The position numbers and the translations under genes are program-made. The notes under the pieces were generated by a model, which worked only from the letters and a program-made list of their open reading frames with translations, was not told the DNA's origin and did no database searches. A stretch of 64,000 nt of DNA from Owenia fusiformis (taxonomy: Eukaryota; Annelida; Polychaeta; Sabellida; Oweniidae): positions 4,593,730-4,657,729 of the forward strand of contig CAIIXF020000007.1 in assembly GCA_903813345.2 (NCBI GenBank). Reading direction: 5' to 3'. Numbering within the stretch: the first letter of the stretch is position 1; each line of letters starts with the position of its first letter. This document shows positions 6,001 to 55,114 of this stretch, piece after piece.

Positions 6001-9000
6001 AAATGTGACTTCTAGGTCGGGGAGATTCCCCATAGAGCCCATGTTGTAAAACCACAAAAAGTGAAATATCTTTTCTTGTGTTGGGCAGATAGTATTTTCT
6101 TTTACTGGACATATTTTAATTTGTATAACTATCACATACATGCGGGTAATATGAAAAGTGAACCACTAAAACTGATGAATATTCAAGTTTAAGGGAATTT
6201 TGTAATACCCTGCCATGTTATTTCCCCCGAATCAGCCTCCTGGTGGCGAAACTGGTAACTACCTACTCGCATCTGAGTAATTGCAGCCATTTAAAAAAAT
6301 GTTTTTGCCATTTGGTTCAAATTTTATATGGCGCTGATGCTTAGAGACAAAGGAGCTCTGGTCAAGAAGACATATTCAAGATGGCTACCAAATTTTAAAA
6401 TGGCCACCATTTTTTGTTATCTTTGATAAGTTATCTGAGTCAACTCAAATATCAATGGATGGATTTGGTTGAAATTTTATATGCTGATACCAAGGGAGCT
6501 CTGTTTAAGAAGAAATCTTTCGCTATTTATCAAGACATGTTTTATTCGGTACTCCTTGGAGTTGCTGTTTTCTAGTTTGCTTCATTGTCAACTGTTACAT
6601 TTTGGTTTAGTGGACAGAGCCAGAACGTCCGCAATCACATAAGTCCATAGCACAGTTATGGCATGGTCAGGGGAATGGTACAAAGAATCGAGAACCTCCG
6701 CCCAATGCTTTAAGACGGCACGCTTATTTTATGAAGGTAACTCAACAGCCTGAAACCAGGGGGCGCTTTGGGTGAATTTGAGCAGATTCACCTGCTTTAT
6801 GTTAACATTGAAGAACGTGTACATTGTGGCTTATTAGCAATAGATGGATGTTACAGGCTATATTTAGAGTTATTAAATGCTCATTTTTTCATGTGCTTAC
6901 TATATTAAAAAGATTATTTTAGCCTATACATGGATGCTTTTAGATATTTTCACAAGTTTTCACTATGCTTTTTTATTTCCAGGATTCACAAGTATACAAG
7001 TTATAGTCATATATAACAATGCACATTTATTTATATTAACATTATAAACATTTATATTGTTAGCATTTTATGCTACTTATAATTATTGTAAACATTTATA
7101 TTGTATGCATTTTGCTTTTACAGTTTCAAGTAGATTTTTAGCCTTTTCAGTAGTTTCATATTGAATATGTTTGCCTTGTAGTATACTAGTATCAGTAATA
7201 TTTAAATGTTATATTTTGTACTTACATTTTGTAATGGTTTTTATTAAAAACATTTATCATCAAGTCTTTTTTTGTTAAGTTAAGTAAGCAAACATTAGAT
7301 AAGTAGAAAGATTCTTATAAATACATTTTTCAGATTTTCTTGGAAATATTTTTTTTATATCTTAGATTATTATTCATCATGAGTCAATGGCTTTTTATAA
7401 AATAAATAAACAGTACATATATATAATATTTAGTACTTTATGTAAAAATGCAATATATCCACTATTCCGTCTATTAGAATCATATACATTTATGAACTGT
7501 ATCTAACCATATACAAACAACTGAAAAGATTTTAACAACATGTTTAGTAATAGAATTGAAAATTCGAAATTGAAGAATAGTTTCTTGCTATCATTACAGT
7601 TTTCCAAACTTCGTAAAAACAAGGAGAAACAGATGGCACAGCAAGACAAGGAGAAATCTCGATTTAAGATGAAACAGATTGACGATGATTATAATGTGGA
7701 TCTGGACAATGATGAAAATGATAGTGATGTCAGTGTATCTGAGGTTAGTCTAAACTGAAAACTGAGAAATGCATTGTTATATATGGAGTTATAAAATGAA
7801 GTGGAGTTTCGAATCAGCAAGGAATACAATACATTAACAAATTAGGTTGGCAATTTGAATATTGTAGATAAAGTAATAGAATAACTATGTTTTTGCTCAA
7901 TCTTTTGAATCTTGAGATAACAGGCATGATGAGGCATAGAATAACATTAACCAGAAAGAATCCATTATTATTGAAAACCATAGTCTTGCATCTAGGTGGG
8001 ATATTATAGGGAGGTTCAGAAGGGCTTTATATAGGACCATAGACAGTTCTTTGAAATCTGTTGCAGGATGTCGTCAATGAGGTACCAGTAGTGACTCGTC
8101 CATTCTCTGGAAATAAAAAAGATGTTGACGAAAGTGGATCCTTGAAGTACGCCTCCTGGAGGTGTCCTGGTGTCTATAAGCCTGAAAGGTATAATAGTTG
8201 ATACATTATTGAACTGTATTAAATGTAGAGCACGCCACAATAATTCAAACTAATGCACATTTACACTAAATAGGATCAATACATTGCACTTGGTAAATAA
8301 TCAACTCTCAAATAAATGTTGGTATATGTTAATTGTTTCTGAATGAAAGAATTTTAAAATTGCAAAATGATAATAAATGATTCCAGAGAATCCAAGTTCA
8401 AAGTAGAATCAGTATAAAGAATTTGTTGGTTTTAAAGAACTCAATCTATTTCAGGGTGAAAGATTTTGAGTTTGAAAAGCCTGAGCCTCAATTCTCCTCT
8501 GCCAGTTTCACATCCCCAGCTCAGCAGGTGCTTCGTCTTGGGAAAGTCATTGAACAGAAGGAGAAAGACATTGATTATCTCCGAGATGCTTTGTTTAAGT
8601 CGCAGAGAGAGAATTACAAGCTATGTAAACAGATTGAAGGGTATGTGAATTATGTTAAACTGGTAACAAATAAAATGTTGATTCAGAGCTAAAGTTTATT
8701 TTACATTTTACACCCGCTTCCTGTTCTAATTCCTTTGAGTCATCAACTTATATTTATTGCAACAATTTTACGCTCATTAATCTCTAATATTCATTGACAT
8801 TTTATACTTGCAACATTTTACGCTCATTTTTATTGTGATGCCTTAAGTCATCAACATTTTACACTCTATCCTTTCTATTTCATATCAGTCATCTACAAAC
8901 AATGAAAATTACCTTTTCTAAATATTTCAGGTACTCTGGCAAAGATTATGACAGCCTTAAGAAAGAGAACCTGATCTTGAAAGAACAACTAACCAGAGTC

Positions 9001-9294
9001 ATGCGCGAAAATGCCAGACTTCACGGAGAAAAATATAAGGACACAAATCACATATTCCATAAGTTAAAAATAGAGGAAAAACTTGAAGAACAGTATGGGG
9101 TTAAAAATAAAAATATCCCTAAACCAAAAATAGCAAAGACTTTATATGACGAAGACACTGTCAATCTAGAAAATACAAGAAATCTGAACTCTAGTAAAGA
9201 TGGCAGTAACAGTAGTATAGACAATCTGAATACCTCCCACAGGTCTAATACCTCACCAGGAAATCGATCAAAAAATATCAGTGGCTTAAAATAA
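384..9294 (+). CDS. Unrecognised coiled-coil protein with duplicated KGWRG exons (8 exons)
   Basis: Exons that join in one frame: 384-449 (first ATG 396), 3073-3162, 3580-3666, 6611-6736, 7600-7743, 8067-8188, 8455-8640 and 8931-9294 (TAA at 9292). Every junction has AG acceptor and GT donor and the phases agree. From ATG 396 (A at -3) the product is 390 residues; there is no stop between 384 and the ATG, so coding could begin further upstream. Residues 19-48 and 49-77 are two homologous units, each with F/Y-D-K followed by KGWRG and a conserved Met. Residues 120-167 run from basic (KLRKNKEKQ) to strongly acidic (DDDYNVDLDND). Residues about 233-269 and 276-305 look like coiled coil, then a Ser/Asn-rich tail. 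I do not recognise the family; a centrosomal or ciliary role would be a guess from the coiled coil alone. Exons 4-8 lie inside the tandem duplication that starts at 6500. Confidence 0.8.
500..510. promoter_or_regulatory. NRF1-like palindrome
   Basis: TGCGCATGCGT, close to the NRF1 consensus GCGCATGCGC. Similar sites recur in this window at 14037, 14088, 19907 and 41206. There is no proof of function; one of these copies sits inside a transposon. Confidence 0.3.
3036..3070 (+). repeat. (TGAT)n microsatellite at a splice acceptor
   Basis: About eight TGAT/GATT units run directly into the TTTCAG acceptor of exon 2 (3073). The array therefore occupies the expected branch-point and pyrimidine region. 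Confidence 0.85.
5123..5308. mobile_element. Tigger/pogo-like MITE
   Basis: The terminal inverted repeats CAGTAAAACCTGT and ACAGATTTTGCTG are related with two mismatches, and each end is flanked by TA, as expected for Tc1/mariner/pogo elements. The 186-bp body has no coding capacity. Assignment to pogo/Tigger rests on the terminus style only. Confidence 0.55.
5384..5425. repeat. Short tandem duplication containing AGGTCA
   Basis: Two adjacent copies of an approximately 20-bp unit, CACAGGTCATCAATAATGT. Each contains an AGGTCA half-site. Confidence 0.7.
5450..5495. repeat. Pyrimidine tract, duplicated CCCTCC unit
   Basis: Two adjacent units of GACCCCCCTCCCTCCCTC type. The minus strand is G-rich and could form a G-quadruplex. 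Confidence 0.6.
5590..6510. repeat. Degenerate repeat cluster at the left duplication breakpoint
   Basis: Three diverged copies of a unit containing GGTTCAAATTTTATATG.. followed by GCTGAT and GGAGCT, near 5776, 6313 and 6467, separated by AAGATGGCC-type stretches. The third copy runs across position 6500, the left edge of the duplicated segment. The open frame at 5591-5869 lies within this repeat and is not considered a gene. Confidence 0.55.
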
Positions 9295-9815
9295 ATGTGT
9301 ATGGCATTGTTATGGTTTCCATTTTTGTGACGGCGCTTGGTGATCGGGGGTTGGCAGTTGGTGGTTGGCTGTTTGTAGTTGGTGGTTGGCGATTGGTGTC
9401 TGTAACAATTTCTTACAACTTCCCATAACTTAACAAATACTGTTTAGACTGACTTCAATTTTTTTCAAAATCATCTTCAAGTTCTGAAAAGTTCAAATCT
9501 GACTATAGATTTTGAGATTTGACCTTCAATGACCATCTCAAGGTCAAAAAGATTCATAACATTGTGAGCACCGAGGTGGTGACATTTTGTCATATTAATG
9601 CCTTGTTGTGATTTAAGGTATTGGTGAATTTAACTGCTGGCTGATGGATTAAACTTTTATTTTATGACCAACTCATTTAAATATCGACTTATTGAATAGT
9701 ACCTACTACTATTCATATTTAATTTCAGTAATCCACCAACCAGCCGTTGAATTTGTGAATACTCTCAATATCCTTATACTGAATTGTTTTTCTTTGTTAA
9801 CAACTTTGAAATAAA
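9295..9815 (+). other. 3' UTR of the coiled-coil gene
   Basis: Follows the TAA at 9292. The first AATAAA in sense orientation is at 9810-9815. It includes a GT-rich tract with repeated TTGGTGGTTGGC at 9335-9402 and a fragment of the AGGTCA-rich repeat family. The same sequence follows the copy 2 exons, with AATAAA at 27693. Confidence 0.5.
9421..9560. repeat. Diverged fragment of the AGGTCA-rich repeat family
   Basis: Shares the order AAGTTCTGAAAAGTTCAAATCTGAC, TTTGACCTTCA, TGACC and AAGGTCAAAAAG with the spacer block of the elements at 17754 and 23409, but is clearly diverged. The copy 2 equivalent is at 27304-27443. Confidence 0.65.
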
Positions 9816-10022
9816 CAACTTATTATACAAATAATCTGCCTGTGCATGATAAATCAGAAGTTTTTGTTTCTGTTACATTGATAATTTATAAGCATGAAGT
9901 TTAATGCTTGAGGTATTTGTGAAGAAACACACAACCAAGAAAATCAGACCTTTGTTTTTAAGTTAGTGAAAAAATCTTATGACATCATGATTTCCATGGT
10001 TAAAAATTTGTTAAAGTTAAAA

Positions 10023-10682
10023 GAAGGAGGGAAAGTATCGCAACAGATTTCGTAACAGGTGCATATGTTAGGCCAATGCATTATCTCCAGGAAAAGCATG
10101 CATAGAGATGATAAAATAATTTTGACTTTGAGACAGGGAAGATGCAAACAATCCACCCACATGTTTTTTCTGAAATGTTGTCCTGATTTTCAACCCCTTC
10201 CACCTCTGCTTTTCCAATTTTTGTTGCATCAATATGTTGCGTTTTGACACACAATTAAACCCTTTAAAGGAATAAGTAATTCCTCCAGGGGTTTTAAAGA
10301 AATCCATAATGGGAGACCAAAATTAGCTGAAAGCAATGGATCGCATGAGTTCTCCCTATAGGAAAATAACATGGGGAGTATTGTTTTCCACTTTATTGAA
10401 GAGGAATCACTTATTCCTTTAAAAGGGGTTAATTAACTTTGTCTTAAAATGCAACATATTGATGCAAAAAAATTGAAAAAGCAGGGGTGGAAACGGTTGA
10501 AAATCAGGACGACATTTCAGAATAACATGTTTCAAAATCTAAATTATTTTATCATCTCTATGAGTGCTTTTCCTGGAGATAATGCATTGGCCTAACATAT
10601 GCACCTGTTTAAATGCTCAGAATATAGTCAAAATCCAAAACATGACTGTCCAAAATCTGTTGCGATATTTACCCTCCTCCTC
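10023..10682. mobile_element. Foldback element (long inverted repeats), copy 1
   Basis: The left arm (10023-10286) and right arm (10401-10682) are reverse complements along most of their length around a 114-bp loop. The outer ends read GGAGGG..TATCGCAACAGATTT and AAAATCTGTTGCGATA..CCCTCC. The left arm lacks about 50 bp that the right arm has. There is no coding capacity; open frames on both strands (10059-10307) are by-products of the palindrome. Superfamily unknown. Confidence 0.75.
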
Positions 10683-10777
10683 AAGAGTAAAAATGTTGGG
10701 AGCAATCTTTTAAAGGCACATGTCATGGTTTTCCTTTACAATAAAGATTTTATTCCCTGAGATATTAAAATTCAACT

Positions 10778-11188
10778 CAGGCCCGGCCCCTTAGCCAGGA
10801 TTTGCCAAATTTGGAAAATTCCAGGGGGTTTACTTTTGACAATTTTGGTCCAAATATGGCCAAAATCACTTAAAAAGTGCTCAGAATGGTGAAAAGCTGC
10901 ATGATTTTGACAGAATTTTTGGGCAGGGGGTTCGCTCTAAACTATCGAAACAACAAGGGGTTAGAGAAAAAAACTTCTGTGCTTGAGGGAAAAAAATTGT
11001 TGGCCACTAAAACCCAAAAGTGGGCCCAAATTTTGAAATTATGAGGCCCATTTTCTTCAAATTTTGGCCTGAAATTAAAAAATAAGGCCTTAAAAGGCCC
11101 AGTAATGATCAAATAGGCCCACTTTTTGGGGCCTTAAGGCTTTTTTTGGTCCACAAAGGGAGGGGGAGCAGGCCCCCCAGATCCGCTA
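10778..11188. mobile_element. CAGGCCCG..-type TIR element, copy 1
   Basis: It begins CAGGCCCGGCCCCTTAGCCAG and ends near CCCCCCAGATCCGC, with GGCCCA/GGCCTTAAGGCC-rich interior. The ends and the early interior (AAATATGGCCAAAATCACT) match the element at 59712-60026, which shows it is a dispersed family. No coding capacity. Confidence 0.55.
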
Positions 11189-12657
11189 GTACATACTGGA
11201 GCATAGTCTTGCTTCATGACCCTGGACCCCCCCCCCATATCTACCTCAACAACTTATTGTGGCGGAGTTGGTGGTTGTAATGGGGGAGGGTGATTACAAG
11301 GGCTTGTAGCTTGACTAACTGAAGCATTTCAAAAGCCTATGTGTTGAACAACAAATCCAACAAGATAATAAAATAGATGGCACAAGTGGTTTCAAATGGG
11401 GCACTACATACAACCAACATAGAATTTATAACCATACATTTCACAGCCTTGAGATAAATGTTGCAAAAAACTGGCCAAGTTCTGATTGCCCAAGTTGTTA
11501 TTTTTCTAGCAATATCAATAAATTTTGCAACCTATTATATGACATCATTAATCTTGCCAATAATATATAATAGCTTCTTTCATCTACCAAAAGGTGGCAG
11601 GGTTCATTAGATAGTGTTGCCTGATTGCAGAAGGGTCTATTGGAAGCTAAAATCAAATATTTTGTCAAAAGATCTCTGGTAATTTTTACTCTTATTCCAG
11701 CCCCTCAAAAGATGAATTTCATTTGGGGTTGTTTTTACTTTATAATTTAAAAAGTTTTTCAAAATTTGCCTTTGGTGCTATTATTTTGCATTCCTTTAAC
11801 ATGACCTACTTTAGCGGAGTAATATAAAATCTTAATTGATGTAAAATGACCCAATTAATGTATTCGTATATTCTCAACTTCACATTTATTTCACATGTTT
11901 TAATAAAGTAATATACTTATTTTTGTTGAAAAAACGAAAATATTAAAGAAAACAAATTCCCTTAAAAAATGACCATATAATTTATGTGAGGATTATATTT
12001 TGAGGCGGATGTGTCAGTGGCCTGATTAATTTGAAAGCCACGCCATCTTGGAATTCAAATTTGTTTCGTGAAGAGGGCAAAAGACTGCGTTTTCTCCAAC
12101 ATATATAACGATTGAAGTGACCAGATAACTAGTTTTGGATTGTAAAGGTCCTAGAGGTTAGGTGCGTATACCAAGTTTGCTAATAACCTCACCTTTAGTT
12201 ATGTTTTTCACTGTTCAAAAGTGTGGTGTTTCATTTGAAAAAAATTATTTCCGAAACGGACATCAAAATATTTTTGAAAAGTGTCGGTCAAGAACAGTCT
12301 AAATAAGCTACATATTATGAATATCTTGGCAGACTATTATATTTGTATGATATATGTTCATACCATGCTTTATATTTAGGGTAGTAAGAAAGTAGAATTA
12401 GCGGGAAAATATTTAGAATTTCTTTGTGTTTATTTTACTGAATGAGTCACATTCTCCTGTCCATTCCAGTTCATGTGCTTCCAGATTTTATTTTTTATTT
12501 ACTTCATGCATCCACTTTCACTGGTAGAATGTGAGTCTGTATCCTTGGAATCTTTGAAAATACAGCTCACAATAATCACTTAGAACTTTCTTTCATTTTT
12601 GAGTTGAGGTGATTGAGGCTTACTCGAGTCTGTGCTACACGCACCTAGAACTCATTT
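11189..12657. other. No gene seen
   Basis: AT-rich sequence with a C-run at about 11227-11236 whose length (10 versus 11) is one of the two differences found between the duplication copies. No exon, RNA gene or element boundary is recognised. The same holds for 29072-30541. Confidence 0.5.
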
Positions 12658-13484
12658 TTAATAAATTTTATAAATATTTTTAAGAATATTAATCATATTT
12701 AGGATGAAGCGTTGCTTGTCTGGATTTAGATATTTCAAAATTTCATTTCGGAGTTTGACACATGGTGAAATTTTCTCGCTGTAGCTAAAAATGGCTTCCG
12801 GTTCTGGACGTGAATAACATTTGAAATTATTCTCGCTTAAAGAAATCAAATATAACAATAGATTCAGTTGGGGATGTGAGCTGATGTTCTTCAAATCTAT
12901 ACATAAAGGTATATTTCATATTATTATGCCATATTTACTGTGCGTGTGACACAATGATTTACAATATTTATAATACTAAGGCAGCTCAATCTTCCTCCTC
13001 AAAGCCGGAATATAGAGAAGGCTTTGGACCGAAGTAAATTGAGGCAATGTTAGCCATTCTGTCCATCAGTTATTCGTCCAAATATTCTGTAGATAGGCAG
13101 GCAACACGTCCATGTAGGTAATTGTCGGACAAAGGAAGGCCTGCATTGAGTGTCGGACAATACCTACATGGATGACATTCCCTCAAATAAGAACATAGAA
13201 CATCGAAGAACAGCATACAACGATCGGATCTATATGACGTCCCTGAACTCTAGTACATGTATAAAATTGCCGTCCTCCCTGTAGTCTTGTAAGCGTAGAC
13301 ATATGAAGTAACTTCCATGTTCCAACATCACTCATATATCCTCAGATTGAAAGTCCTAGAGGCAATGAAAAGTAAATGTATGTCAATCAAAGCAGAACAT
13401 ATGATTTTTACAATTAGTACAACATGTCAGAAATGATGAAATGTTACCATGTGTCTACTTACCAGTTTGTTCTATGTCATCCAT
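12658..13484 (-). CDS. Candidate two-exon small gene, left partner of a head-to-head pair
   Basis: Tentative model. Minus-strand exon 13484-13463 begins ATG GAT GAC ATA GAA and ends at a GTAAGT donor in phase 1. Exon 12896-12658 follows a TATAG acceptor in the matching phase and stays open for 79 codons to TAA. The join gives 86 residues starting MDDIEQTDLKNI. No domain, signal peptide or clear membrane segment is seen, and I do not recognise it. Support: strong donor, compatible phase, and a near-identical ATG-plus-donor exon in the opposite arm of the inverted repeat. Against: an open frame of this size can arise by chance in AT-rich DNA, and the acceptor tract is weak. Confidence 0.25.
13109..13172. 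repeat. Short imperfect hairpin
   Basis: CATGTAGGTAATTGTCGGACA and TGTCGGACAATACCTACATG form a stem with one mismatch and one bulge around an 18-base loop. It sits in the intron of the candidate left gene. Copy 2 is at 30993-31056. Confidence 0.6.
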
Positions 13485-13579
13485 CCTGCTAGTTGGTTAC
13501 ATTGTGGAACGCAGCCAAACACGACAATGAAGGCAACAACATATCGATATTGATCTTAGCAGAATTTCTCACTTGACTG

Positions 13580-14545
13580 ATCATGTGACACGTGTCTGAT
13601 CACGTGACTAGTTACTGTATAGATCATGTGATTTAATGACGTGTCACCCAACCATGTCTTCAAGGAAAATGGTAGTAAATATTTTGGAAAATGTTTTGCG
13701 AGTTTTTGCTACTGATTATAGAATTATTGCATTCAAATAACAGTCAATATGGTACAACGAAAATGGGACTTCTGCGCATGTTAAAATTTTTCGTCAAAAC
13801 TCAACTTTTGTTCAAGTTGATACGATTGTCTTTCGAACTAGAGACTTACCTCATTCGAAAGATCATAAAAGACTTTATCTATACTGAAAATCTTAGATCC
13901 AAACATAGTAGAATACGCCATCAGTCCGCATTTGATTTTTTGAAGTGAGTTTCGTAGATCGTCAGATTTCTCCGACTGATATCGGGTTATCTCAAACTGG
14001 TTCGTTTATAAATACGAATTTGTTTACCGTTGTAAGGCGCATGCGCAAAATTGATTTATAAACCTTATTGGTTGATGGTTTTTCTCCTGCGCATGCGTGA
14101 AGTCTGATGAACACTTATGACGAAGACCGGAGCAAACATTACTAGCTCTTGAACGAAATTCCAAGATTCAGGTCATTTCGCCGTGTTTGCTAAGCGTGTA
14201 TACGTGAATGACAAGCTGTTTTGAGTAGATCGGGTACCTGTTTTAGACACAACATTGATTTAGCTTGACATTGATGTGCACATTGGCACTTTTGAGCATG
14301 TTAATACAAGTTTTTACACTCTTAGCACGAGACGGGTTTTCGAAAAATCTGTTATCTGATTCACTCGATTATCGTATGGATATGTATTTCTGCTGACATT
14401 TCAACACCACATCACATAGAATTACGATGCAGAATGATAATAAAACACAAAACAACTACTAAATTCCACTTGTTATTTCACAGGAGGTAAAAATGCAAAC
14501 TGCCTAGATTCTTTGTAAGGGTCGTCAGACATCGGATTGGCCGCC
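13580..14545. promoter_or_regulatory. Promoter-like region between the inverted arms
   Basis: E-box cluster at 13580-13608 (ACACGTGT and ATCACGTGAC), a perfect GCGCATGCGC at 14037-14046, TGCGCATGCGT at 14088-14098 with an inverted CCAAT box (ATTGGT) between them, and GATTGGCCGCCATATTTG near 14534 (CCAAT plus YY1-like). These are common in TATA-less bidirectional promoters. Activity is inferred. Copy 2 is at 31464-32429. Confidence 0.35.
13850..13921 (-). CDS. Candidate first coding exon (24 codons to a GTAAGT donor)
   Basis: On the minus strand an ATG at 13921 opens 24 codons (start MAYSTMFGSK) that end exactly at GAG|GTAAGT. It lies just downstream of the NRF1-like sites for a minus-strand transcript. 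Its phase-0 end does not fit the exons of the small gene proposed to its left, and no partner exon was found. A counterpart lies at 31734-31805. Confidence 0.2.
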
Positions 14546-14814
14546 ATATTTGAAATGAAAATATCACTAAATAGAGGTCTGCGCATGCCTCAACATTTCG
14601 ACTGATAAGACCGCCTCCTAAATGAAAATACTACACATAAAGTGGTGAAAAACAACGAACTTAAGTTGAAAGATCGCAACGTTCGCTACTTTGTTCAATT
14701 CCGGAAATCTCCAAGGGGCTGCAAATGGGAAATTTTTTAGATTAAGATTTTATAACCTCAGAATACTGCCTTCAGTGTCCTATTTGGCTGAGTTCTACAA
14801 TGTAATCTAGCAGG

Positions 14815-16970
14815 ATGGATGACATAAAACAAACTGGTAAGTAGACACATGGTAACATTTCATTATTTTAACCATATTAACTGGTCACCAGAATAAGCGT
14901 TTTGATTCTAGCCAGAAATTCCTTCAAAATCATGCAGTTTTTCATCATTCTGAGGACTTCTGGCATGATTTTTTAGCCAGAACTGTCAGAAATCTTCCCC
15001 CCTTGGTAAAACCACTTCCCTGAGAAAAATTATCAATATAAAAGTTCGGAGTTTTCTCAAATGTGAGACAATGGTGAATTGCCCAAGAGAAAAAGAATTG
15101 AATGTCAACATTTTCAAAGTCAGCCTTCAGAAGTCTAACTGAAAACTAGATTCATGAACTTACCGGGAAGATATGAAAGATTTGACAATCAACTTGTGTG
15201 AAAATGTGACATAAAAATCAAATTTTTTATATTTGATAAACAGTGTAGACATATTTCAATTGCCTTGGGCTGTAAAATGTAAAAATACCACAAACTTCTC
15301 AATATATTCATGCTACCTGTCTCAGTGCTTTTCATCTCAGGCTTTCATTTTTCATAATCAAAGATGATGAGTTATATTGTTACAATAAATCAGCAGGGGT
15401 CATCCAAGATTTTGAAACAGCTTACAGAAACAACTCTTATAAAGATCTATCATCTTATCCTATTCATTATTATATTGAATCTTTATTAAATTATACTTTT
15501 AAAATATACAGTATCGTCAATATTGATGAAACTACATGTCTTCATTGTATATTTTGCACCTACATCGCATTGGTATTTTTGTAAAGGCCTTGCTGGCACG
15601 CATGCTATTTGTAAACTGCATCATAAATTCTGCAAATGGACATATACCTCTCCTTGGCCTATATTCTGGCTTTATCTTCAAAAGGAAAAGTACTAAGCAA
15701 TAATAAGTTCATTCTTCTTTAATGTAATAGATCTTACAATAGTTTATTAATGTGATGAATTCATATTATACATTTAGTGCAGAGTCTGGTCTAATTATAT
15801 TCTTTCGACAAGGTAGAGTATATTTTAAAAGTTCAGTCAGTGTCATGAACCTGTACTATGCCAATTGATGTTCATTTCAGTGTATTGCACTTGTTATCAG
15901 AGGAATGTGCAATGGGCAACATTTGGTATTTTTTTCATGGAAACCACTATATCAAAACCAGTATGTACTGGATTTTAGCTTTGTTGGTGTTCTATCAGAA
16001 AATGGGCATACTGTAATCCCAGACTATTTCTTCATTCATATGAAATATCCAAATGGATTAAGATTAGGAAAGTGGTGTTTTCCCTATACCAGTTGATTAT
16101 TTGGATATAATAGTTCAATCCCATTTTGGGAATGTCTAATCATGTGGCATTGAAACTACATGTACAGTACTGTATGTAATGTCAGTTTCTGGAGTCTGAA
16201 AAAACTGTAGGTGAAAACGATGTAAAAAACAATGCCATAGCAAAATTCTTCTTCATATATTTTTTCTCTTCATAATAAAAAGCTTATTGATTTGCAATAA
16301 TATTCCTGAAGGCTATTCATTCCCTCTGTGAATATAATCAGGCCAATAATGGCTTCCACTTATGGTGACGTCTAGGACAATAATGAGGCTAATATCTCAG
16401 ACTCTTATCCTATTAATAATTGATTTCAAACAAATGCATTAGTATAGCTGGACTTTGCAAAACAGAAGTTGTGAATGAAATGATGTACATGTATATGATT
16501 TAAGGGTGTTCATACAAAAAAGTCTTATTATTCCAATCTATAGGATTTGAAGGTTGATTTTTGGTGGGTATCTATTATCTATTGTTGACAGTTGGCTAAT
16601 AGCTGATTTACATCACAATTATTTGTTTTGTGTATACTGGTACATTATTTGGGAATATCTTGTAATATGCTCATAGTGACTTGGACAAGTTATATAGACT
16701 TACATACAGAGACATGTGTATAAATGTTTTCCCATTATGTCTACCTTGAGTCAATATCTGCAAATATAATATGTTCATTTCCTCTTGAATGTATATCTGA
16801 CTTGCAGTCAGTTTCTAACTAGTCTTCATATTATATTTATAGACTTTGAGCCTCTGTTTTCTTTGTACTGGAGTTTGGCCTTCGGGATCGGGACATTTTC
16901 TCTTTTGAAGTGGACCACCTCATTAGCCACTCAGTTCAAACATCCTCGGCAGACTAGTTGTGTGTGTTAA
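14815..16970 (+). CDS. Candidate two-exon small membrane protein, right partner of the head-to-head pair
   Basis: Tentative model. Exon 14815-14836 begins ATG GAT GAC ATA AAA and ends at GTAAGT in phase 1. Exon 16843-16970 follows a TTTATAG acceptor in matching phase and ends in TAA. The product is 49 residues starting MDDIKQTDFEPL, with one hydrophobic segment (about residues 11-29) and a short tail with two cysteines. An alternative in-phase chain uses 15881-15960 (GTATGT donor) and 17203-17271, giving 56 residues with a different hydrophobic end. Having two equally plausible chains shows how weak the evidence is. Confidence 0.22.
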
Positions 16971-17753
16971 AGGTTGAGGCTTTCGAGTTTGAATAAAAAT
17001 GTGCTGTTTTTTAGCAATTGCTGAAATTATATGTTTATGTTATGAAGATCTGTTGTATTAGGCATTTTAACTCTAGAGTTTTATATTTGGTTAAGCTGTT
17101 TGTCAATGTTGGAATATTCAAAGTGTGAAGGAGCTTTAATTCTTTGTTCTTTGTTTTTACACACATATTTTCGAATTCAAATTGAATTACATATTATTGC
17201 AGGGTATTCTTGTCTGTTGGATAATTTTATTCCTCAGGGATGGACCAGCTGATTTATTTATATTTATATAGCAGCTGTTTTTAAGAGTCGGATTCACCTT
17301 TATCAGCTCTTATCTCATTACAGTCTAGCGCTTGGCCTTAAAAATGGCTCCAGAATGGATGAGCTAATGATCCTACTAGTCCAGGCAATCTTATTTATTT
17401 TACCCCTTTTGTGTCATTTTTCCCATGGACATATACATTAAAAGCTGTGTATATTGAACATTTTTTGTTGGTAGGTAGGTGCTCAATACAGAGAGAGTAA
17501 TTTATACAGAAGTCATATGTAGTGTGTGCGAAGAAAGGGTGTCTACTAGAGACATGGCCTGGGGTTCACTAAGACAAGATTTTGGTGTACATAGTTCTGA
17601 AATTGTCCTCTATATTAACAAACTGAGTGAGCACCTGGTTGCTTTACTTCGCTGTGGCTGTGTAACTCTATTATTTAGAGGTAAATGTATACACATGTTT
17701 AACATAACATTACAAAAGACCATACACCAAGGTTTCCTTGGGTTTGACATTTT
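14873..17753. other. AT-rich stretch with a few exon-like segments
   Basis: Apart from the candidate exons named in the small-gene model, 17479-17688 is open, less AT-rich than its surroundings and ends at AGAG|GTAAAT, so it could be an exon of an unidentified plus-strand transcript. Nothing else is recognised. The copy 2 equivalent is 32757-35637. Confidence 0.3.
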
Positions 17754-29071: not shown

Positions 29072-30541
29072 GTACATACTGGAGCATAGTCTTGCTTCAT
29101 GACCCTGGACCCCCCCCCCCATATCTACCTCAACAACTTATTGTGGCGGAGTTGGTGGTTGTAATGGGGGAGGGTGATTACAAGGGCTTGTAGCTTGACT
29201 AACTGAAGCATTTCAAAAGCCTATGTGTTGAACAACAAATCCAACAAGATAATAAAATAGATGGCACAAGTGGTTTCAAATGGGGCACTACATACAACCA
29301 ACATAGAATTTATAACCATACATTTCACAGCCTTGAGATAAATGTTGCAAAAAACTGGCCAAGTTCTGATTGCCCAAGTTGTTATTTTTCTAGCAATATC
29401 AATAAATTTTGCAACCTATTATATGACATCATTAATCTTGCCAATAATATATAATAGCTTCTTTCATCTACCAAAAGGTGGCAGGGTTCATTAGATAGTG
29501 TTGCCTGATTGCAGAAGGGTCTATTGGAAGCTAAAATCAAATATTTTGTCAAAAGATCTCTGGTAATTTTTACTCTTATTCCAGCCCCTCAAAAGATGAA
29601 TTTCATTTGGGGTTGTTTTTACTTTATAATTTAAAAAGTTTTTCAAAATTTGCCTTTGGTGCTATTATTTTGCATTCCTTTAACATGACCTACTTTAGCG
29701 GAGTAATATAAAATCTTAATTGATGTAAAATGACCCAATTAATGTATTCGTATATTCTCAACTTCACATTTATTTCACATGTTTTAATAAAGTAATATAC
29801 TTATTTTTGTTGAAAAAACGAAAATATTAAAGAAAACAAATTCCCTTAAAAAATGACCATATAATTTATGTGAGGATTATATTTTGAGGCGGATGTGTCA
29901 GTGGCCTGATTAATTTGAAAGCCACGCCATCTTGGAATTCAAATTTGTTTCGTGAAGAGGGCAAAAGACTGCGTTTTCTCCAACATATATAACGATTGAA
30001 GTGACCAGATAACTAGTTTTGGATTGTAAAGGTCCTAGAGGTTAGGTGCGTATACCAAGTTTGCTAATAACCTCACCTTTAGTTATGTTTTTCACTGTTC
30101 AAAAGTGTGGTGTTTCATTTGAAAAAAATTATTTCCGAAACGGACATCAAAATATTTTTGAAAAGTGTCGGTCAAGAACAGTCTAAATAAGCTACATATT
30201 ATGAATATCTTGGCAGACTATTATATTTGTATGATATATGTTCATACCATGCTTTATATTTAGGGTAGTAAGAAAGTAGAATTAGCGGGAAAATATTTAG
30301 AATTTCTTTGTGTTTATTTTACTGAATGAGTCACATTCTCCTGTCCATTCCAGTTCATGTGCTTCCAGATTTTATTTTTTATTTACTTCATGCATCCACT
30401 TTCACTGGTAGAATGTGAGTCTGTATCCTTGGAATCTTTGAAAATACAGCTCACAATAATCACTTAGAACTTTCTTTCATTTTTGAGTTGAGGTGATTGA
30501 GGCTTACTCGAGTCTGTGCTACACGCACCTAGAACTCATTT

Positions 30542-31368
30542 TTAATAAATTTTATAAATATTTTTAAGAATATTAATCATATTTAGGATGAAGCGTTGCT
30601 TGTCTGGATTTAGATATTTCAAAATTTCATTTCGGAGTTTGACACATGGTGAAATTTTCTCGCTGTAGCTAAAAATGGCTTCCGGTTCTGGACGTGAATA
30701 ACATTTGAAATTATTCTCGCTTAAAGAAATCAAATATAACAATAGATTCAGTTGGGGATGTGAGCTGATGTTCTTCAAATCTATACATAAAGGTATATTT
30801 CATATTATTATGCCATATTTACTGTGCGTGTGACACAATGATTTACAATATTTATAATACTAAGGCAGCTCAATCTTCCTCCTCAAAGCCGGAATATAGA
30901 GAAGGCTTTGGACCGAAGTAAATTGAGGCAATGTTAGCCATTCTGTCCATCAGTTATTCGTCCAAATATTCTGTAGATAGGCAGGCAACACGTCCATGTA
31001 GGTAATTGTCGGACAAAGGAAGGCCTGCATTGAGTGTCGGACAATACCTACATGGATGACATTCCCTCAAATAAGAACATAGAACATCGAAGAACAGCAT
31101 ACAACGATCGGATCTATATGACGTCCCTGAACTCTAGTACATGTATAAAATTGCCGTCCTCCCTGTAGTCTTGTAAGCGTAGACATATGAAGTAACTTCC
31201 ATGTTCCAACATCACTCATATATCCTCAGATTGAAAGTCCTAGAGGCAATGAAAAGTAAATGTATGTCAATCAAAGCAGAACATATGATTTTTACAATTA
31301 GTACAACATGTCAGAAATGATGAAATGTTACCATGTGTCTACTTACCAGTTTGTTCTATGTCATCCAT
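30542..31368 (-). CDS. Candidate small gene, copy 2 of the left partner
   Basis: Identical to 12658-13484: exons 31368-31347 and 30780-30542 on the minus strand. The same reservations apply. Confidence 0.25.
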
Positions 31369-32756
31369 CCTGCTAGTTGGTTACATTGTGGAACGCAGCC
31401 AAACACGACAATGAAGGCAACAACATATCGATATTGATCTTAGCAGAATTTCTCACTTGACTGATCATGTGACACGTGTCTGATCACGTGACTAGTTACT
31501 GTATAGATCATGTGATTTAATGACGTGTCACCCAACCATGTCTTCAAGGAAAATGGTAGTAAATATTTTGGAAAATGTTTTGCGAGTTTTTGCTACTGAT
31601 TATAGAATTATTGCATTCAAATAACAGTCAATATGGTACAACGAAAATGGGACTTCTGCGCATGTTAAAATTTTTCGTCAAAACTCAACTTTTGTTCAAG
31701 TTGATACGATTGTCTTTCGAACTAGAGACTTACCTCATTCGAAAGATCATAAAAGACTTTATCTATACTGAAAATCTTAGATCCAAACATAGTAGAATAC
31801 GCCATCAGTCCGCATTTGATTTTTTGAAGTGAGTTTCGTAGATCGTCAGATTTCTCCGACTGATATCGGGTTATCTCAAACTGGTTCGTTTATAAATACG
31901 AATTTGTTTACCGTTGTAAGGCGCATGCGCAAAATTGATTTATAAACCTTATTGGTTGATGGTTTTTCTCCTGCGCATGCGTGAAGTCTGATGAACACTT
32001 ATGACGAAGACCGGAGCAAACATTACTAGCTCTTGAACGAAATTCCAAGATTCAGGTCATTTCGCCGTGTTTGCTAAGCGTGTATACGTGAATGACAAGC
32101 TGTTTTGAGTAGATCGGGTACCTGTTTTAGACACAACATTGATTTAGCTTGACATTGATGTGCACATTGGCACTTTTGAGCATGTTAATACAAGTTTTTA
32201 CACTCTTAGCACGAGACGGGTTTTCGAAAAATCTGTTATCTGATTCACTCGATTATCGTATGGATATGTATTTCTGCTGACATTTCAACACCACATCACA
32301 TAGAATTACGATGCAGAATGATAATAAAACACAAAACAACTACTAAATTCCACTTGTTATTTCACAGGAGGTAAAAATGCAAACTGCCTAGATTCTTTGT
32401 AAGGGTCGTCAGACATCGGATTGGCCGCCATATTTGAAATGAAAATATCACTAAATAGAGGTCTGCGCATGCCTCAACATTTCGACTGATAAGACCGCCT
32501 CCTAAATGAAAATACTACACATAAAGTGGTGAAAAACAACGAACTTAAGTTGAAAGATCGCAACGTTCGCTACTTTGTTCAATTCCGGAAATCTCCAAGG
32601 GGCTGCAAATGGGAAATTTTTTAGATTAAGATTTTATAACCTCAGAATACTGCCTTCAGTGTCCTATTTGGCTGAGTTCTACAATGTAATCTAGCAGGAT
32701 GGATGACATAAAACAAACTGGTAAGTAGACACATGGTAACATTTCATTATTTTAAC
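31315..32756. repeat. Inverted repeat pair with exon-like arms, copy 2
   Basis: Identical counterpart of 13431-14872, carried by the segmental duplication. Confidence 0.75.
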
Positions 32757-34854
32757 CATATTAACTGGTCACCAGAATAAGCGTTTTGATTCTAGCCAGA
32801 AATTCCTTCAAAATCATGCAGTTTTTCATCATTCTGAGGACTTCTGGCATGATTTTTTAGCCAGAACTGTCAGAAATCTTCCCCCCTTGGTAAAACCACT
32901 TCCCTGAGAAAAATTATCAATATAAAAGTTCGGAGTTTTCTCAAATGTGAGACAATGGTGAATTGCCCAAGAGAAAAAGAATTGAATGTCAACATTTTCA
33001 AAGTCAGCCTTCAGAAGTCTAACTGAAAACTAGATTCATGAACTTACCGGGAAGATATGAAAGATTTGACAATCAACTTGTGTGAAAATGTGACATAAAA
33101 ATCAAATTTTTTATATTTGATAAACAGTGTAGACATATTTCAATTGCCTTGGGCTGTAAAATGTAAAAATACCACAAACTTCTCAATATATTCATGCTAC
33201 CTGTCTCAGTGCTTTTCATCTCAGGCTTTCATTTTTCATAATCAAAGATGATGAGTTATATTGTTACAATAAATCAGCAGGGGTCATCCAAGATTTTGAA
33301 ACAGCTTACAGAAACAACTCTTATAAAGATCTATCATCTTATCCTATTCATTATTATATTGAATCTTTATTAAATTATACTTTTAAAATATACAGTATCG
33401 TCAATATTGATGAAACTACATGTCTTCATTGTATATTTTGCACCTACATCGCATTGGTATTTTTGTAAAGGCCTTGCTGGCACGCATGCTATTTGTAAAC
33501 TGCATCATAAATTCTGCAAATGGACATATACCTCTCCTTGGCCTATATTCTGGCTTTATCTTCAAAAGGAAAAGTACTAAGCAATAATAAGTTCATTCTT
33601 CTTTAATGTAATAGATCTTACAATAGTTTATTAATGTGATGAATTCATATTATACATTTAGTGCAGAGTCTGGTCTAATTATATTCTTTCGACAAGGTAG
33701 AGTATATTTTAAAAGTTCAGTCAGTGTCATGAACCTGTACTATGCCAATTGATGTTCATTTCAGTGTATTGCACTTGTTATCAGAGGAATGTGCAATGGG
33801 CAACATTTGGTATTTTTTTCATGGAAACCACTATATCAAAACCAGTATGTACTGGATTTTAGCTTTGTTGGTGTTCTATCAGAAAATGGGCATACTGTAA
33901 TCCCAGACTATTTCTTCATTCATATGAAATATCCAAATGGATTAAGATTAGGAAAGTGGTGTTTTCCCTATACCAGTTGATTATTTGGATATAATAGTTC
34001 AATCCCATTTTGGGAATGTCTAATCATGTGGCATTGAAACTACATGTACAGTACTGTATGTAATGTCAGTTTCTGGAGTCTGAAAAAACTGTAGGTGAAA
34101 ACGATGTAAAAAACAATGCCATAGCAAAATTCTTCTTCATATATTTTTTCTCTTCATAATAAAAAGCTTATTGATTTGCAATAATATTCCTGAAGGCTAT
34201 TCATTCCCTCTGTGAATATAATCAGGCCAATAATGGCTTCCACTTATGGTGACGTCTAGGACAATAATGAGGCTAATATCTCAGACTCTTATCCTATTAA
34301 TAATTGATTTCAAACAAATGCATTAGTATAGCTGGACTTTGCAAAACAGAAGTTGTGAATGAAATGATGTACATGTATATGATTTAAGGGTGTTCATACA
34401 AAAAAGTCTTATTATTCCAATCTATAGGATTTGAAGGTTGATTTTTGGTGGGTATCTATTATCTATTGTTGACAGTTGGCTAATAGCTGATTTACATCAC
34501 AATTATTTGTTTTGTGTATACTGGTACATTATTTGGGAATATCTTGTAATATGCTCATAGTGACTTGGACAAGTTATATAGACTTACATACAGAGACATG
34601 TGTATAAATGTTTTCCCATTATGTCTACCTTGAGTCAATATCTGCAAATATAATATGTTCATTTCCTCTTGAATGTATATCTGACTTGCAGTCAGTTTCT
34701 AACTAGTCTTCATATTATATTTATAGACTTTGAGCCTCTGTTTTCTTTGTACTGGAGTTTGGCCTTCGGGATCGGGACATTTTCTCTTTTGAAGTGGACC
34801 ACCTCATTAGCCACTCAGTTCAAACATCCTCGGCAGACTAGTTGTGTGTGTTAA
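32699..34854 (+). CDS. Candidate small membrane protein, copy 2 of the right partner
   Basis: Identical to 14815-16970: exons 32699-32720 and 34727-34854. The same reservations apply. Confidence 0.22.
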
Positions 34855-35637
34855 AGGTTGAGGCTTTCGAGTTTGAATAAAAATGTGCTGTTTTTTAGCA
34901 ATTGCTGAAATTATATGTTTATGTTATGAAGATCTGTTGTATTAGGCATTTTAACTCTAGAGTTTTATATTTGGTTAAGCTGTTTGTCAATGTTGGAATA
35001 TTCAAAGTGTGAAGGAGCTTTAATTCTTTGTTCTTTGTTTTTACACACATATTTTCGAATTCAAATTGAATTACATATTATTGCAGGGTATTCTTGTCTG
35101 TTGGATAATTTTATTCCTCAGGGATGGACCAGCTGATTTATTTATATTTATATAGCAGCTGTTTTTAAGAGTCGGATTCACCTTTATCAGCTCTTATCTC
35201 ATTACAGTCTAGCGCTTGGCCTTAAAAATGGCTCCAGAATGGATGAGCTAATGATCCTACTAGTCCAGGCAATCTTATTTATTTTACCCCTTTTGTGTCA
35301 TTTTTCCCATGGACATATACATTAAAAGCTGTGTATATTGAACATTTTTTGTTGGTAGGTAGGTGCTCAATACAGAGAGAGTAATTTATACAGAAGTCAT
35401 ATGTAGTGTGTGCGAAGAAAGGGTGTCTACTAGAGACATGGCCTGGGGTTCACTAAGACAAGATTTTGGTGTACATAGTTCTGAAATTGTCCTCTATATT
35501 AACAAACTGAGTGAGCACCTGGTTGCTTTACTTCGCTGTGGCTGTGTAACTCTATTATTTAGAGGTAAATGTATACACATGTTTAACATAACATTACAAA
35601 AGACCATACACCAAGGTTTCCTTGGGTTTGACATTTT

Positions 35638-37056
35638 TATCGCACTTTGAAAAAGTGCTATATTGTCGTCGTCTTGTGCTGTTGGGCGGGCGTGTGGTTG
35701 TGCGGGCGTGCGGGCGGCACATAAACCAAATCTTGTCATCAAATTTCCAGGATAACTGCTTACCTGTTCAACTTGAAATTTTTACAGATGCAAGAGCAGA
35801 CTAGTACCAAGATCTGATTAGGTTAAGGGCATGCTGGGTAAACTACGTGGCGGCCATTTTGAATTTTTCAACAAATCTTGTCATCAAAATTCCAGGAAAA
35901 CCACTTATCCGTTCAACTTGAAATTTTTACAGATGCAAGAGCAGACTATTGTCAAGATCTGATTAGGTTTTGGGTATGCTGGCTGAATTACATGGTGGCC
36001 ATTTTGAATTTTTCAACTTGCTCCAAATTGACCAAATTTTTTTTTTAAAAACATCTACAAGTTCTCAGAAGTTCAAATCTGACCTTAGATTTCAGATTTG
36101 ACCTTTCATCCACCTTCAGTGACCTTGAAAAGGTCAAAAAAGTTGATTTTCTAAATTGATATTTTGGATTTAAATTTAGGTCAGCTTAATTACAAAACAC
36201 CTACTGAGGTCTGAAAAAGTGAAATTTTCAAGGTCGAAGGTCAAGGTCATTAAACTAGGTCACAAATGATGTTATCCAAGTTTCTCAAAGTTTGAGACTA
36301 CAAATCAATTCTTGTCATCAAAATTCCAAGAAAACCGCTAACCTGTTCAACTTGAAATTTTTACACATGCAATAGCAGACTAGTGCCAAGATCTGATTAG
36401 GTTTAGGGCATGCTGGGTAAACTACGTGGTGGCCATTTTGAATTTTTCAACAAATCTTGTCATCAAAATTCCAGGAAAACCACTTATCCGTTCAACTTGA
36501 AATTTTTACAGATGCAAGAGCAGACTATTGCCAAGATCTGATCAGGTTTTGGGTATGCTGGCTGAATAACATGGTGGCCATTTTGAATTTTTCAATTTGG
36601 CGGCCATTTTGAATTTTTCAACTTGCTCCAAGTTGACCAAATTTTTTTTTTAAAAACATCTACAAGTTCTCAGAAGTTCAAATCTGACCTTAGATTTCAG
36701 ATTGGACCTTTCGTTGACCTTCAGTGACCTTTAAAAGGTCAAAAATTTGATTTTCTAAATTGATATTTTGGATTTAAATTTAGGTTAGCTTAATTACAAA
36801 ACACCCACTGAGGTCTGAAAAAGTGAAATTTTCAAGGTCGAAGGTCATCAAATAAGGTCACAAACAATGTTATCTAAATTTTCCCAAAGTTCAAGACTAC
36901 AAATAAATTCTTGTCATCAAAATTGCAGGAAAACCGCTAACCTTGTCAACTTGAAATATTTACAGATGCAAGAGCAGACTAGTGCCAAGGTCTGATTAGG
37001 TTTTTGCCATGCTGGGTAAATTGCATGGTGGCCAGTTTGCTCTTCAAAGTGCGATA
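35638..37056. mobile_element. AGGTCA-rich TIR element, full, copy 2 of the first one
   Basis: Identical counterpart of 17754-19172 at offset 17,884, with both 14-bp termini. Confidence 0.7.
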
Positions 37057-37497
37057 TTTATCACTGTGTGTCTTGTTGTTATTTTCCTGGGCTGTGCGTC
37101 ATATTGAATTGTTGTTATTAATAATACAGACTAAAGTGCAAGACTTGACATTTTGATTAGGGGGTTTTGTATGGTTTCTTTTTGTGGTTCCAGTCTTTGC
37201 AGTATTGATGGAATTTAGGTCTTTGCATATCCTGGATTACTGTTATTGGAATGAGCCCTTACAAATAAACAATGAAAAAACACATTGTTTCTATTCAGAG
37301 TATTGAATGTGAAAGTTTACTTCCCTATGTATTCTATTATAAAGCATTCTTATTTGTCTCACCTGTGACAGTTCTCATAGATTTCAGTTATATGGATCAG
37401 ATTAGTGTACCTTGATCAATGATGGTATATCATCTTTATCATTGATATTATTGAAGAGTATTATGCTTTATCTGAAGGCTGGTGAATATGTATTAAC

Positions 37498-38372
37498 TAG
37501 GGCTGTGCCGGAACCGGTTCGGACGGTTCGGAATCGGAACCGGAACTTGGTCTCACGGAATCGGAACTTTCGGAACCCCTTTTGGTTCACAAATGAAAAT
37601 AATTATGTATGAGTGAGTTCGACGGCGATCATGACGATATCGTCGTCCAAGTTTGTCAGGTTAACACTTACCTTTCCTGTCAAGCAAGTTTGAATGTTTT
37701 TACGAAAGAAATAGACTCTAAAATCTGTAAAAAGAGAGAAAATTCGATCTTTTTTCTACTTGTTTTCACTTCCGGCTGCTCTGACCATAATGCGCATGCG
37801 TAATTGAAAAAGTTTTGAAACGAAATCAACGAAATTGAAAAACTGTGAAACCCAAGGAGGATTGGGTCCCAGAATGCAACATCGATGCTCTCTCGATGTT
37901 CTTGATGTCTTGATTACAAAATTTGAATTCAAACTGCTGGGAAGATAATTTCTTCTAAATCAATTAATCTGATATTGTAAGAGTTAAAATGTAATTAATT
38001 AACGCTGTTAGATTGTAAGACGTCATGGAAAAGTAAATTTATTCATTTATCTATGAGTATTTTCGCCCCGTCGATTCCTACTTCCAATGAAATCCGAAGG
38101 TCAAAGTTCGTAAAACAAAACTTGATTTCTGTTGATTTCTCCGCTATTTATTTTGTTTATGCGAGTAATACACATGCAAATTGGATGTAGTTTGAAGGAA
38201 AACATCACTGGAGGAACAATGGTCACGGATATTAACGATTCAAAGCAAGTACTAAGGTAAGGGTCCGATATTGTTCCGAAACCCTTCGGAACATGATATT
38301 AAAATTCCGAATTCCGGTATTTTAACAAAAGTCCGCGGTTCGGACCGATTCCGGTCGAATGGCACGGCCCTA
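37498..38372. mobile_element. hAT-type non-autonomous element, uninterrupted (875 bp)
   Basis: Copy 2 counterpart with the same termini and the same GTATTAAC duplication (37490-37497 and 38373-38380). The site where copy 1 carries the LINE is empty here (CGGAACAT|GATATT at 38294/38295). Confidence 0.88.
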
Positions 38373-39377
38373 GTATTAACCAAGTTTGTGCGCTACAAGG
38401 CTTCTCTTATAAATTAAGAGTTAATTCAGAAAATGTGAATAATTGAATTAGAGAAGCTTCTTAGCATACATATTCACACTACCCTACCACGTGACCACGT
38501 TTAAAAGGGAAACAGGGTACAGCTAAGTTGCAAATGGAGGACGTGGGTTTAATTCCATATTTCTGAACGTAAAATACATTTTACATTTATTTCTAGTATT
38601 CTACCAGACATAGAATTGATTCATCGAGCAGTTTGTAGAATATTGTTGGCAATAAACCACTATAGGCAAAGATAGATAATAGTGGGCGCAGGGAAGCAAA
38701 ACTCAATGCAATACACGATACATTTCAGTAAATCTATCAACGTACAGGGAGCATGTAAGTTTCCCTTTGAAAATGTTACATTGATATGTAACAAAAAAAA
38801 AAGTTAACTGTTATTTAAACTGCGTGTCATCGTGTTATATGTGGATACGTTCTCCAGTATGTTATTCAACTGTATTTTTGTGAATTAATTGTTTTTCTAA
38901 AATCTTAAGATGCAAAAAACGTCGTCCCAGAAATGTATCTTTACTTTGCCGTAAGGCATAACATATTGTGAAACATTTTTCCTCTTGTCACAAAGAGGAT
39001 AATGTTTGTTTCGAAGTGTCTTGTGATGAGCGTTTCATGATTAAATGCAAAATCACTGGAGCAGATACCATCCAAAAACATCTGACATCCAACACGTCAT
39101 CTAAGACTACATCGATCTGGTATTAGTTTGTTTTACAATGATAGAGAAATACGATGTCATATCAGCGCTACAGCAAATCGTGAAGAACAAAATGCTCTCA
39201 AGTCGTGGCATGATGGTATTTTGAACAAAATATTTTAAATGATCGGTTTTTGAGAACGGTAGTGAATTAGACCATTCAAGGGGTTATATAAATCTACAAA
39301 ATAATGTTTACTTTATTTGGATTAAATAACAATTGATCACACCTCAAAGCATCAACAGGCGGCCTTTTTAGCATTAT

Positions 39378-40831
39378 TATCGCACTTTGAAAAAGTGCTA
39401 TATTGTTGTCGTCTTGTGCTGTTGGGCGTGCGGTCGTGCGGGCGGGCGTGCGGGCGGGCGGGACATAAACCAAATCTTGTCATCAAATTTCCAGGATAAC
39501 TGCTTACCTGTTCAACTTGAAATTTTTACAGATGCAAGAGCAGACTAGTACCAAGATCTGATTAGGTTAAGGGCATGCTGGGTAAACTATGTGGCGGCCA
39601 TTTTGAATTTTTCAACAAATCTTGTCATCAAAATTCCAGGAAAACCACTTATCCGTTCAACTTGAAATTTTTACAGGTGCAAGAGCAGACTATTGCCAAG
39701 ATCTGATTAGGTTTTGGGTATGCTGGCTGAATTACATGGTGGCCATTTTGAATTTTTCAATTTGGCGGCCATTTTGAATTTTTCAACTTGCTCCAAATTG
39801 ACCAAATTTTTTTTTTAAAAACATCTACAAGTTCTCAGAAGTTCGAATCTGACCTTAGATTTTAGATTTGACCTTTCATTCACCTTCAGTGACCTTGAAA
39901 AGGTCAAAAAAGTTGATTTTCTAAATTGATATTTTGGATTTAAATTTAGGTCAGCTTAATTACAAAACACCTACTGAGGTCTGAAAAAGTTAAATTTTCA
40001 AGGTCGAAGGTCAAGGTCATTAAACTAGGTCACAAATGATGTTATCCAAGTTTCTCAAAGTTTGAGACTACAAATCAATTCTTGTCATCAAAATTCCAAG
40101 AAAACCGCTAACCTGTTCAACTTGAAGTTTTTACACATGCAATAGCAGACTAGTGCCAAGATCTGATTAGGTTTAGGGCATGCTGGGTAAACTACGTGGC
40201 GGCCATTTTGAATTTTTCAACAAATCTTGTCATCAAAATTCCAGGAAAGCCACTTATCCGTTCAACTTGAAATTTTTACAGATGCAAGAGCAGACTATTG
40301 CCAAGATCTGATTAGGTTTTGGGCATGCTGGCTGAATTACATGGTGGCCATTTTGAATTTTTCAATTTGGCGGCCATTTTGAATTTTTCAACTTGCTCCA
40401 AATTGACCAATTTTTTTTTTTAAAAACATCTACAAGTTCTCAGAAGTTCAAATCTGACCTTAGATTTCAGATTTGACCTTTCGTTGACCTTCAGTGACCT
40501 TGAAAATGTCAAAAATTTGATTTTCTAAATTGATATTTTGGATTTAAATTTAGGTCAGCTTAATTACAAAACACCTACTGAGGTCTGAAAAAGTGAAATT
40601 TTCAAGGTCGAAGGTGAAGGTCATTAAACTAGGTCACAAATGATGTTATCCAAGTTTCTCAAAGTTTGAGACTACAAATCAATTCTTGTCATCAAAATTC
40701 CAAGAAAACCGCTAACCTGTTCAACTTGAAATTTTTACACATGCAATAGCAGACTAGTGCCAAGATCTGATTAGGTTTAGGGCATGCTGGGTAAATTGCA
40801 TGGTGGCCAGTTTGCTCTTCAAAGTGCGATA
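39378..40831. mobile_element. AGGTCA-rich TIR element, full version of the truncated one
   Basis: The left 974 bp match 23409-24382. It then continues with the rest of the A-A-B-A-A-B-A series to the right terminus TTCAAAGTGCGATA at 40818-40831. It spans the right edge of the segmental duplication, which shows that the breakpoint fell inside this element. The quintuple GGG stretch is at 39440-39462. Confidence 0.75.

Positions 40832-49247: not shown

Positions 49248-55114
<5,867 letters not shown>

Follow-up and report, generated by a model that had tools for sequence, protein, structure and literature searches.

Probable very recent tandem duplication of a 16-kb segment, with a LINE in one copy, in the Owenia fusiformis genome assembly

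In the assembled genome of the annelid Owenia fusiformis, a ~16-kb segment occurs twice, in direct orientation, head to tail and immediately adjacent, within a stretch of 64,000 nucleotides (C7:4593730-4657729; hereafter the window, in whose numbering positions are given unless a contig is named). We regard the pair as probably real: a single-copy segment would have been duplicated very recently, in direct tandem, and copy 1, on the left, carries a long interspersed nuclear element (LINE) that copy 2 lacks. The assembly that we searched holds 498,259,871 bp in 525 contigs, and the features discussed are collected in Table 1. Of two published O. fusiformis forward primers, the one for syt1 (PMC8111721) has a single, exact match in it, which makes the species very probable. 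The match falls in an open frame that reads as a transmembrane segment, and downstream of it are C2-type frames, synaptotagmin-like by eye. The elav1 primer has no match, perhaps owing to an intron or a polymorphism; the gene part of the reverse syt1 primer is absent from the 17.6 kb fetched around the match, and a search of the assembly for COX1 found nothing.

Two adjacent direct copies without a single substitution

By exact string comparison, every letter is the same between 6500-11236 and 24383-29119 (4,737 bp), between 11237-20410 and 29121-38294 (9,174 bp), and between 22323-24382 and 38292-40351 (2,060 bp). The 9,174- and 2,060-bp blocks overlap by 38292-38294, and over the 15,968 aligned bases of copy 2 there are 0 substitutions. 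The copies differ only in one C run, of 10 bases in copy 1 and 11 in copy 2, and in the LINE, an insert of 1,912 bp in copy 1; copy-specific k-mers arise only from the C run and from the LINE edges. BLAST aligns the copies over 13,912 bp at 99.993% identity and over 2,061 bp at 100%, far beyond chance. The outer limits of identity are abrupt: position 6499 differs from 24382, and the right flank differs past one common T (24383 = 40352). The original prediction had described two direct copies spanning 6500-40351 that abut at 24382/24383 with one shared base, and had named as their only differences a C-run length change and a retrotransposon, with no substitution between them. All of this is borne out by the comparison, and the copy structure, the absence of substitutions and the assembled junction sequence are direct observations.

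To place the unit in the genome, we used probes for which the best 40 candidates were scored. A 3-kb internal probe (10500-13500; best 40 of 7,941 candidates) has two full-length places in the assembly, both of them in the window, and its other listed matches are a ~403-bp dispersed element and small fragments. Each flank probe matches over its full length at one place among its best 40 candidates, the other matches being copy 2 or parts of dispersed repeats, and a 200-bp piece spanning the junction has one full-length place in the genome. The copy number of these tested pieces is observed directly. There is no N in the window together with 30 kb on either side (124 kb in total), nor in any of the 264,309 bases fetched from the assembly.

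A young LINE in one of the two copies

The insert in copy 1 contains a minus-strand open reading frame (ORF) with a reverse-transcriptase domain (RVT_1, E 6.5e-35). Its ends are ambiguous by 3 bp (CAT), and any target duplication is at most 3 bp and possibly part of the tail. Among the 42 matches to it in the genome, nine are at least 349 bp long at 98-100% identity (the window copy included), 27 lie at 64-67%, and six are shorter than 100 bp. In relatives on C2 and C5 the 5′ end reaches farther out and the tail is again of the TGATGATG type; a copy at C1:4593537 is truncated elsewhere. From the relatives with longer 5′ ends and the common tail, we conclude that the window insert is a 5′-truncated LINE. 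The features of a LINE insertion are all present, namely a reverse-transcriptase ORF, 5′ truncation, a defined 3′ tail and an empty site. Because copy 2 has the empty site and copy 1 has a 5′-truncated insert with the family tail, the polarity of the event is clear, and both the anatomy of the LINE and the empty site are read directly from the assembled letters. We take the element to be of the CR1/L2 type from its kind of tail, a putative clade assignment given that the domain match is to RVT_1 only. It is like CR1/L2-type insertions in its 5′ truncation, its short tandem-unit 3′ tail and its small or absent target duplication.

The LINE also gives an estimate of age. We aligned the nine copies and counted the changes private to one copy in every column covered by four or more of them, gaps included. 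The count is 1 in 1,889 columns for the window LINE, as against 5, 6, 15, 20, 9, 3 and 5 for the seven other copies above 900 bp and 0 for the 349-bp copy. This low count is a second clock, independent of the duplicated flanks, and it agrees with the zero substitutions between the copies in pointing to a young event.

Breakpoints in repeat-rich DNA and a 1-bp junction

Both breakpoints lie in repeats. The diverged repeat at the left breakpoint is partly like itself and its surroundings, with 6310-6385 resembling 5774-5846, 6351-6498 resembling 5669-5809, and 6463-6519 resembling 6310-6376, and a dispersed repeat at 6000-6283 adjoins it on the upstream side. On the right, a repeat stretch at 39372-40852 holds 145-bp tandem units at 39471-39760 and 40076-40365. 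It is followed by a segment at 40853-41236 (at least 384 bp) that has at least 39 other places among the best 40 candidates, and the stretch and the segment would together form one element. The dispersed repeat with 145-bp internal tandem units is also found at 17748-19193, and it has many near-identical places genome-wide.

Direct-strand homology between the two breakpoint regions reaches a score of 20, compared with a random mean of 20.8, and 199 of 300 order-1 random sequences reached it. With a score no better than random and 1 bp shared at the junction, nonallelic homologous recombination (NAHR) between the breakpoint repeats is rejected. There is a weak inverted match between 6363-6410 and 40341-40395 (score 41, reached by 0 of 300 random sequences), part of which is a tandem motif of 26 bp belonging to the right repeat (40342-40395); we made no use of it.

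The 1-bp overlap at the junction and the lack of direct homology between the breakpoints point to end joining or a replication template switch rather than NAHR. End joining after a break, or a template switch during replication, would have joined 40351 back to 6500, using 1 bp of microhomology with both ends in repeat-rich DNA. Later, a recently active, low-copy LINE would have entered copy 1 by target-primed reverse transcription and lost its 5′ end in the process. We infer that the junction is present in the DNA of the animal; since it has a single common base, there would be no overlap there for an assembler to join on.

Table 1. Coordinates of the duplicated unit and of associated features in the window
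Feature	Position	Strand	Details
Copy 1 of duplicated unit	6500-24382	+	17,883 bp, LINE included
Copy 2 of duplicated unit	24383-40351	+	15,969 bp, LINE-free
Junction of copies	24382-24383		1 bp (T) common with right flank, without N
C run of 10, copy 1	11227-11236	+	sequence comparison
C run of 11, copy 2	29110-29120	+	sequence comparison
5′-truncated LINE, copy 1 only	20411-22322	-	1,912 bp; RVT_1 ORF; 3′ tail TGATGATG
Empty LINE target site, copy 2	38292-38294		CAT
Left breakpoint region, diverged repeat	6310-6519	+	spans breakpoint 6499/6500
Right breakpoint region, repeats	39372-41236	+	breakpoint 40351/40352
Right repeat stretch, cut off at end of copy 1	23403-24382	+	BLAST/self comparison
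Young dispersed element of ~403 bp, both copies	12635-13037; copy 2: 30519-30921	+	genome probe
Inferred coding exon, coiled-coil type by eye	8455-8640; copy 2: 26338-26523	+	open frame, splice signals
Inferred last coding exon, same gene	8931-9294; copy 2: 26814-27177	+	splice phase agrees with previous exon

Other direct repeats in the assembly

We made a survey of direct repeats by three protein-family searches, which gave 144 matches for Pkinase, at least 152 for 7tm_1 and 106 for p450, several matches being exons of one gene. Pairs on the same contig and strand with the same score and profile range were picked by eye, which gave four pairs (1, 0 and 3, respectively), and all four were compared; the survey is a rough count and gives no genome-wide rate. 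One pair, on C10 (36710298-36732458 and 36800355-36822514), aligns over 22,161 bp with 0 substitutions and one homopolymer change. Its copies are non-tandem, being 67.9 kb apart, and there is no N in the parts fetched. In aligned pieces longer than 1,500 bp, the other three pairs show mismatches of 0.45% and 0.84% (C6), 0.80% (C3) and 2.4% (C4), and divergence is often higher in shorter pieces, as in one on C6 with 30 of 898 bases. With three direct repeats at 0.45-2.4% mismatch, duplications of various ages therefore occur in this genome. Repeats with zero divergence recur in the assembly, and they represent either the youngest end of real duplication or a shared error.

Two side observations were made on these repeats. 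The C10 repeat contains a 450-residue ORF that has a protein-kinase domain and, barely above the cut-off, a DNA-binding match of the RFX type. The p450 segments on C3 (7450000 and 7539857) are 89,857 bp apart with 0.5-0.8% mismatches, and one of them has an extra segment of ~960 bp.

Duplication in the genome or in the assembly

False duplication, with its two kinds taken together, is a serious contender, though we think it distinctly less likely than a real event. Several points count for it and against a real duplication. Our case rests on assembled sequence. The unit has the size of one long read, its sole small difference is in a homopolymer, which is typical of consensus noise, and two overlapping contigs left unmerged would likewise produce the L-U-U-R layout (left flank, unit, unit, right flank). 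Assemblies of this type are known to be at risk of retaining haplotigs. The C10 direct repeat, which likewise lacks substitutions over 22,161 bp, may indicate either a common artefact or a second recent event. Finally, according to excerpts of a study of false duplications, false pairs are sometimes joined gaplessly through wrong gap filling (PMC9516828).

The signs of false duplication given in these excerpts are half depth, discordant linked reads, one-copy k-mers and, most often, a gap between the pair (PMC9516828). Here we find 0 N in 124 kb, and hence no such gap. The locus is like the heterotype and homotype false duplications described there in its adjacent, read-length copies and in the haplotype-like presence or absence of a LINE, and it differs from them in having neither a gap between the copies nor substitutions. 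The published Owenia assembly was built with CANU, Arrow, Racon, Bionano and purge_haplotigs from PacBio reads of one male's sperm, and it comprises 12 chromosome-scale scaffolds and 505.8 Mb, compared with the 498,259,871 bp searched here (PMC9977687). Its read N50 of 25.75-30.75 kb is longer than the unit, if the assembly that we searched is the published version (PMC9977687).

In a heterotype false duplication, the LINE-plus and LINE-minus haplotypes of one animal would be laid end to end in a haploid assembly. The single LINE presence/absence difference does look like a polymorphic insertion, but we think this explanation unlikely. The Poisson chance of 0 substitutions between alleles in 15,968 bp is 1e-7 at an assumed heterozygosity of 0.1%, unless the stretch is identical by descent. 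The original prediction had expected allelic copies in a very heterozygous invertebrate to differ by many single-nucleotide polymorphisms, and zero substitutions are unlike alleles. In addition, bases specific to one copy are confined to the C run and the LINE edges, and the junction is gapless, whereas false pairs mostly have a gap, as the excerpts describe (PMC9516828).

The searches that we made found no usable pair of chromosome and haplotig as a yardstick for haplotype divergence. Two unplaced contigs, C67 and C489, differ at 11 of 7,422 and 2 of 1,747 bases and are 99.8% identical over ~9 kb. C67 has exactly 37,000 bases and C489 exactly 61,000, round figures that suggest scaffolder fragments; they hold a kinase match and a 658-codon frame that is putatively reverse transcriptase-like by eye.

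In a homotype false duplication, one haplotype would have been entered twice during assembly, consensus building or gap filling, with a heterozygous or mosaic LINE blocking the alignment of the overlap. A consensus builder can append an unaligned overlap. Zero substitutions, the read-scale length and a homopolymer as the sole small difference all speak for this kind, as does the C10 repeat, likewise without substitution and with one homopolymer change. We nevertheless consider it no likelier than the heterotype kind. It requires LINE-plus and LINE-minus molecules that are otherwise identical across 16 kb, the junction is without N, and the C10 copies are not adjacent, so such a stitching error would not explain them.

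An older tandem duplication held identical by gene conversion would also yield zero substitutions, and tandem direct copies readily undergo conversion. We find this improbable, as conversion would have had to span all 16 kb and yet spare the LINE difference; moreover, the LINE is itself young, and mismatches of 0.45-2.4% separate the copies of the three other direct repeats described above, in pieces over 1,500 bp. That the whole unit is a large mobile element (a Helitron or giant DNA transposon) inserted twice in tandem is rejected as highly improbable: the unit begins with TC and rolling-circle elements are known as head-to-tail copies, but the 3-kb internal probe, with its best 40 candidates scored, matches at full length in the two copies and nowhere else, the Helitron features of a CTRR end and an A|T insertion site are absent, the flanks inspected show no target duplication, and the unit itself carries dispersed repeats.

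A real, very recent tandem duplication, which the original prediction had judged the best fit, therefore remains our preferred reading; it has gained from the young LINE, the gapless 1-bp junction and the zero substitutions, and it is tempered by the C10 repeat, which has the same signature. The locus is like recent tandem segmental duplications and copy-number variants in its direct, adjacent and near-identical copies, its junction homology of zero to a few bp and its breakpoints in repeats. Nothing essential differs, and the zero substitutions together with the LINE difference mark it as notably young. Such a duplication is an ordinary kind of event. In a literature search on tandem or segmental duplication in Owenia, none of the papers listed (5 of 3,977) names Owenia, and we make no claim about the print record.

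Age and implications

With 0 substitutions in 15,968 sites, the 95% upper bound on divergence between the copies is 1.9e-4 per site. If the duplication is real, its age would be less than ~94,000, 31,000 or 9,400 generations at assumed rates of 1e-9, 3e-9 and 1e-8, respectively. True differences may have been lost in polishing, and the duplication would look younger than it is if gene conversion had acted on the copies. The order of events, with duplication before LINE insertion, would follow the scheme given above.

If real, the locus offers a clean young duplication in which the copies first became clearly different through a transposon insertion and not through a point mutation, and the duplication can date the activity of the window LINE family. 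There is also a slight chance that the worm population is still polymorphic for the copy number of this locus, ~10 kb upstream of beta-catenin exons. With LINE-bearing and LINE-free copies on one chromosome, the sequence of duplication, retrotransposition and first substitution could then be observed as it unfolds, and a key developmental gene would have additional distal sequence that varies in dosage. If the pair is an artefact, it serves as a warning that the assembly contains direct repeats which are as long as a long read and lack substitutions, and which could inflate gene counts.

Gene content and minor features of the window

Each copy of the unit contains two inferred coding exons of one gene (Table 1), and both exons are identical between the copies. 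A protein search of the genome with the last exon gave two matches, both in the unit copies. In Pfam, neither exon has a match above the cut-off, the best being ADH_Fe_C (3.2e-5; 24.2 bits against a cut-off of 27), nor do the joined exons (CCDC138_cc, 0.037), and a search of PDB with the unit exons gave two weak matches only (E 0.01 and 0.2). An open frame at 7600-7743 was considered as an upstream exon and dropped because its splice phase, judged by eye, does not fit. A 439-residue frame upstream has no Pfam match.

The ~403-bp element that matched the internal probe has at least 38 other places at 99-100% identity, which looks like a short element that spread in a burst very recently. As it is in both copies, it is presumably older than the duplication.

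Beyond the unit by ~10 kb, exons from ~50.4 kb (50380-55111) encode Arm repeats. We take them to be a beta-catenin-like gene, a name given by eye from the sequence. Its N-terminal motif DSGIQSG is degron-like. Further along the window, a tandem array at 60144-60813 with a period of 90/171 bp is crossed by a 160-codon open frame.

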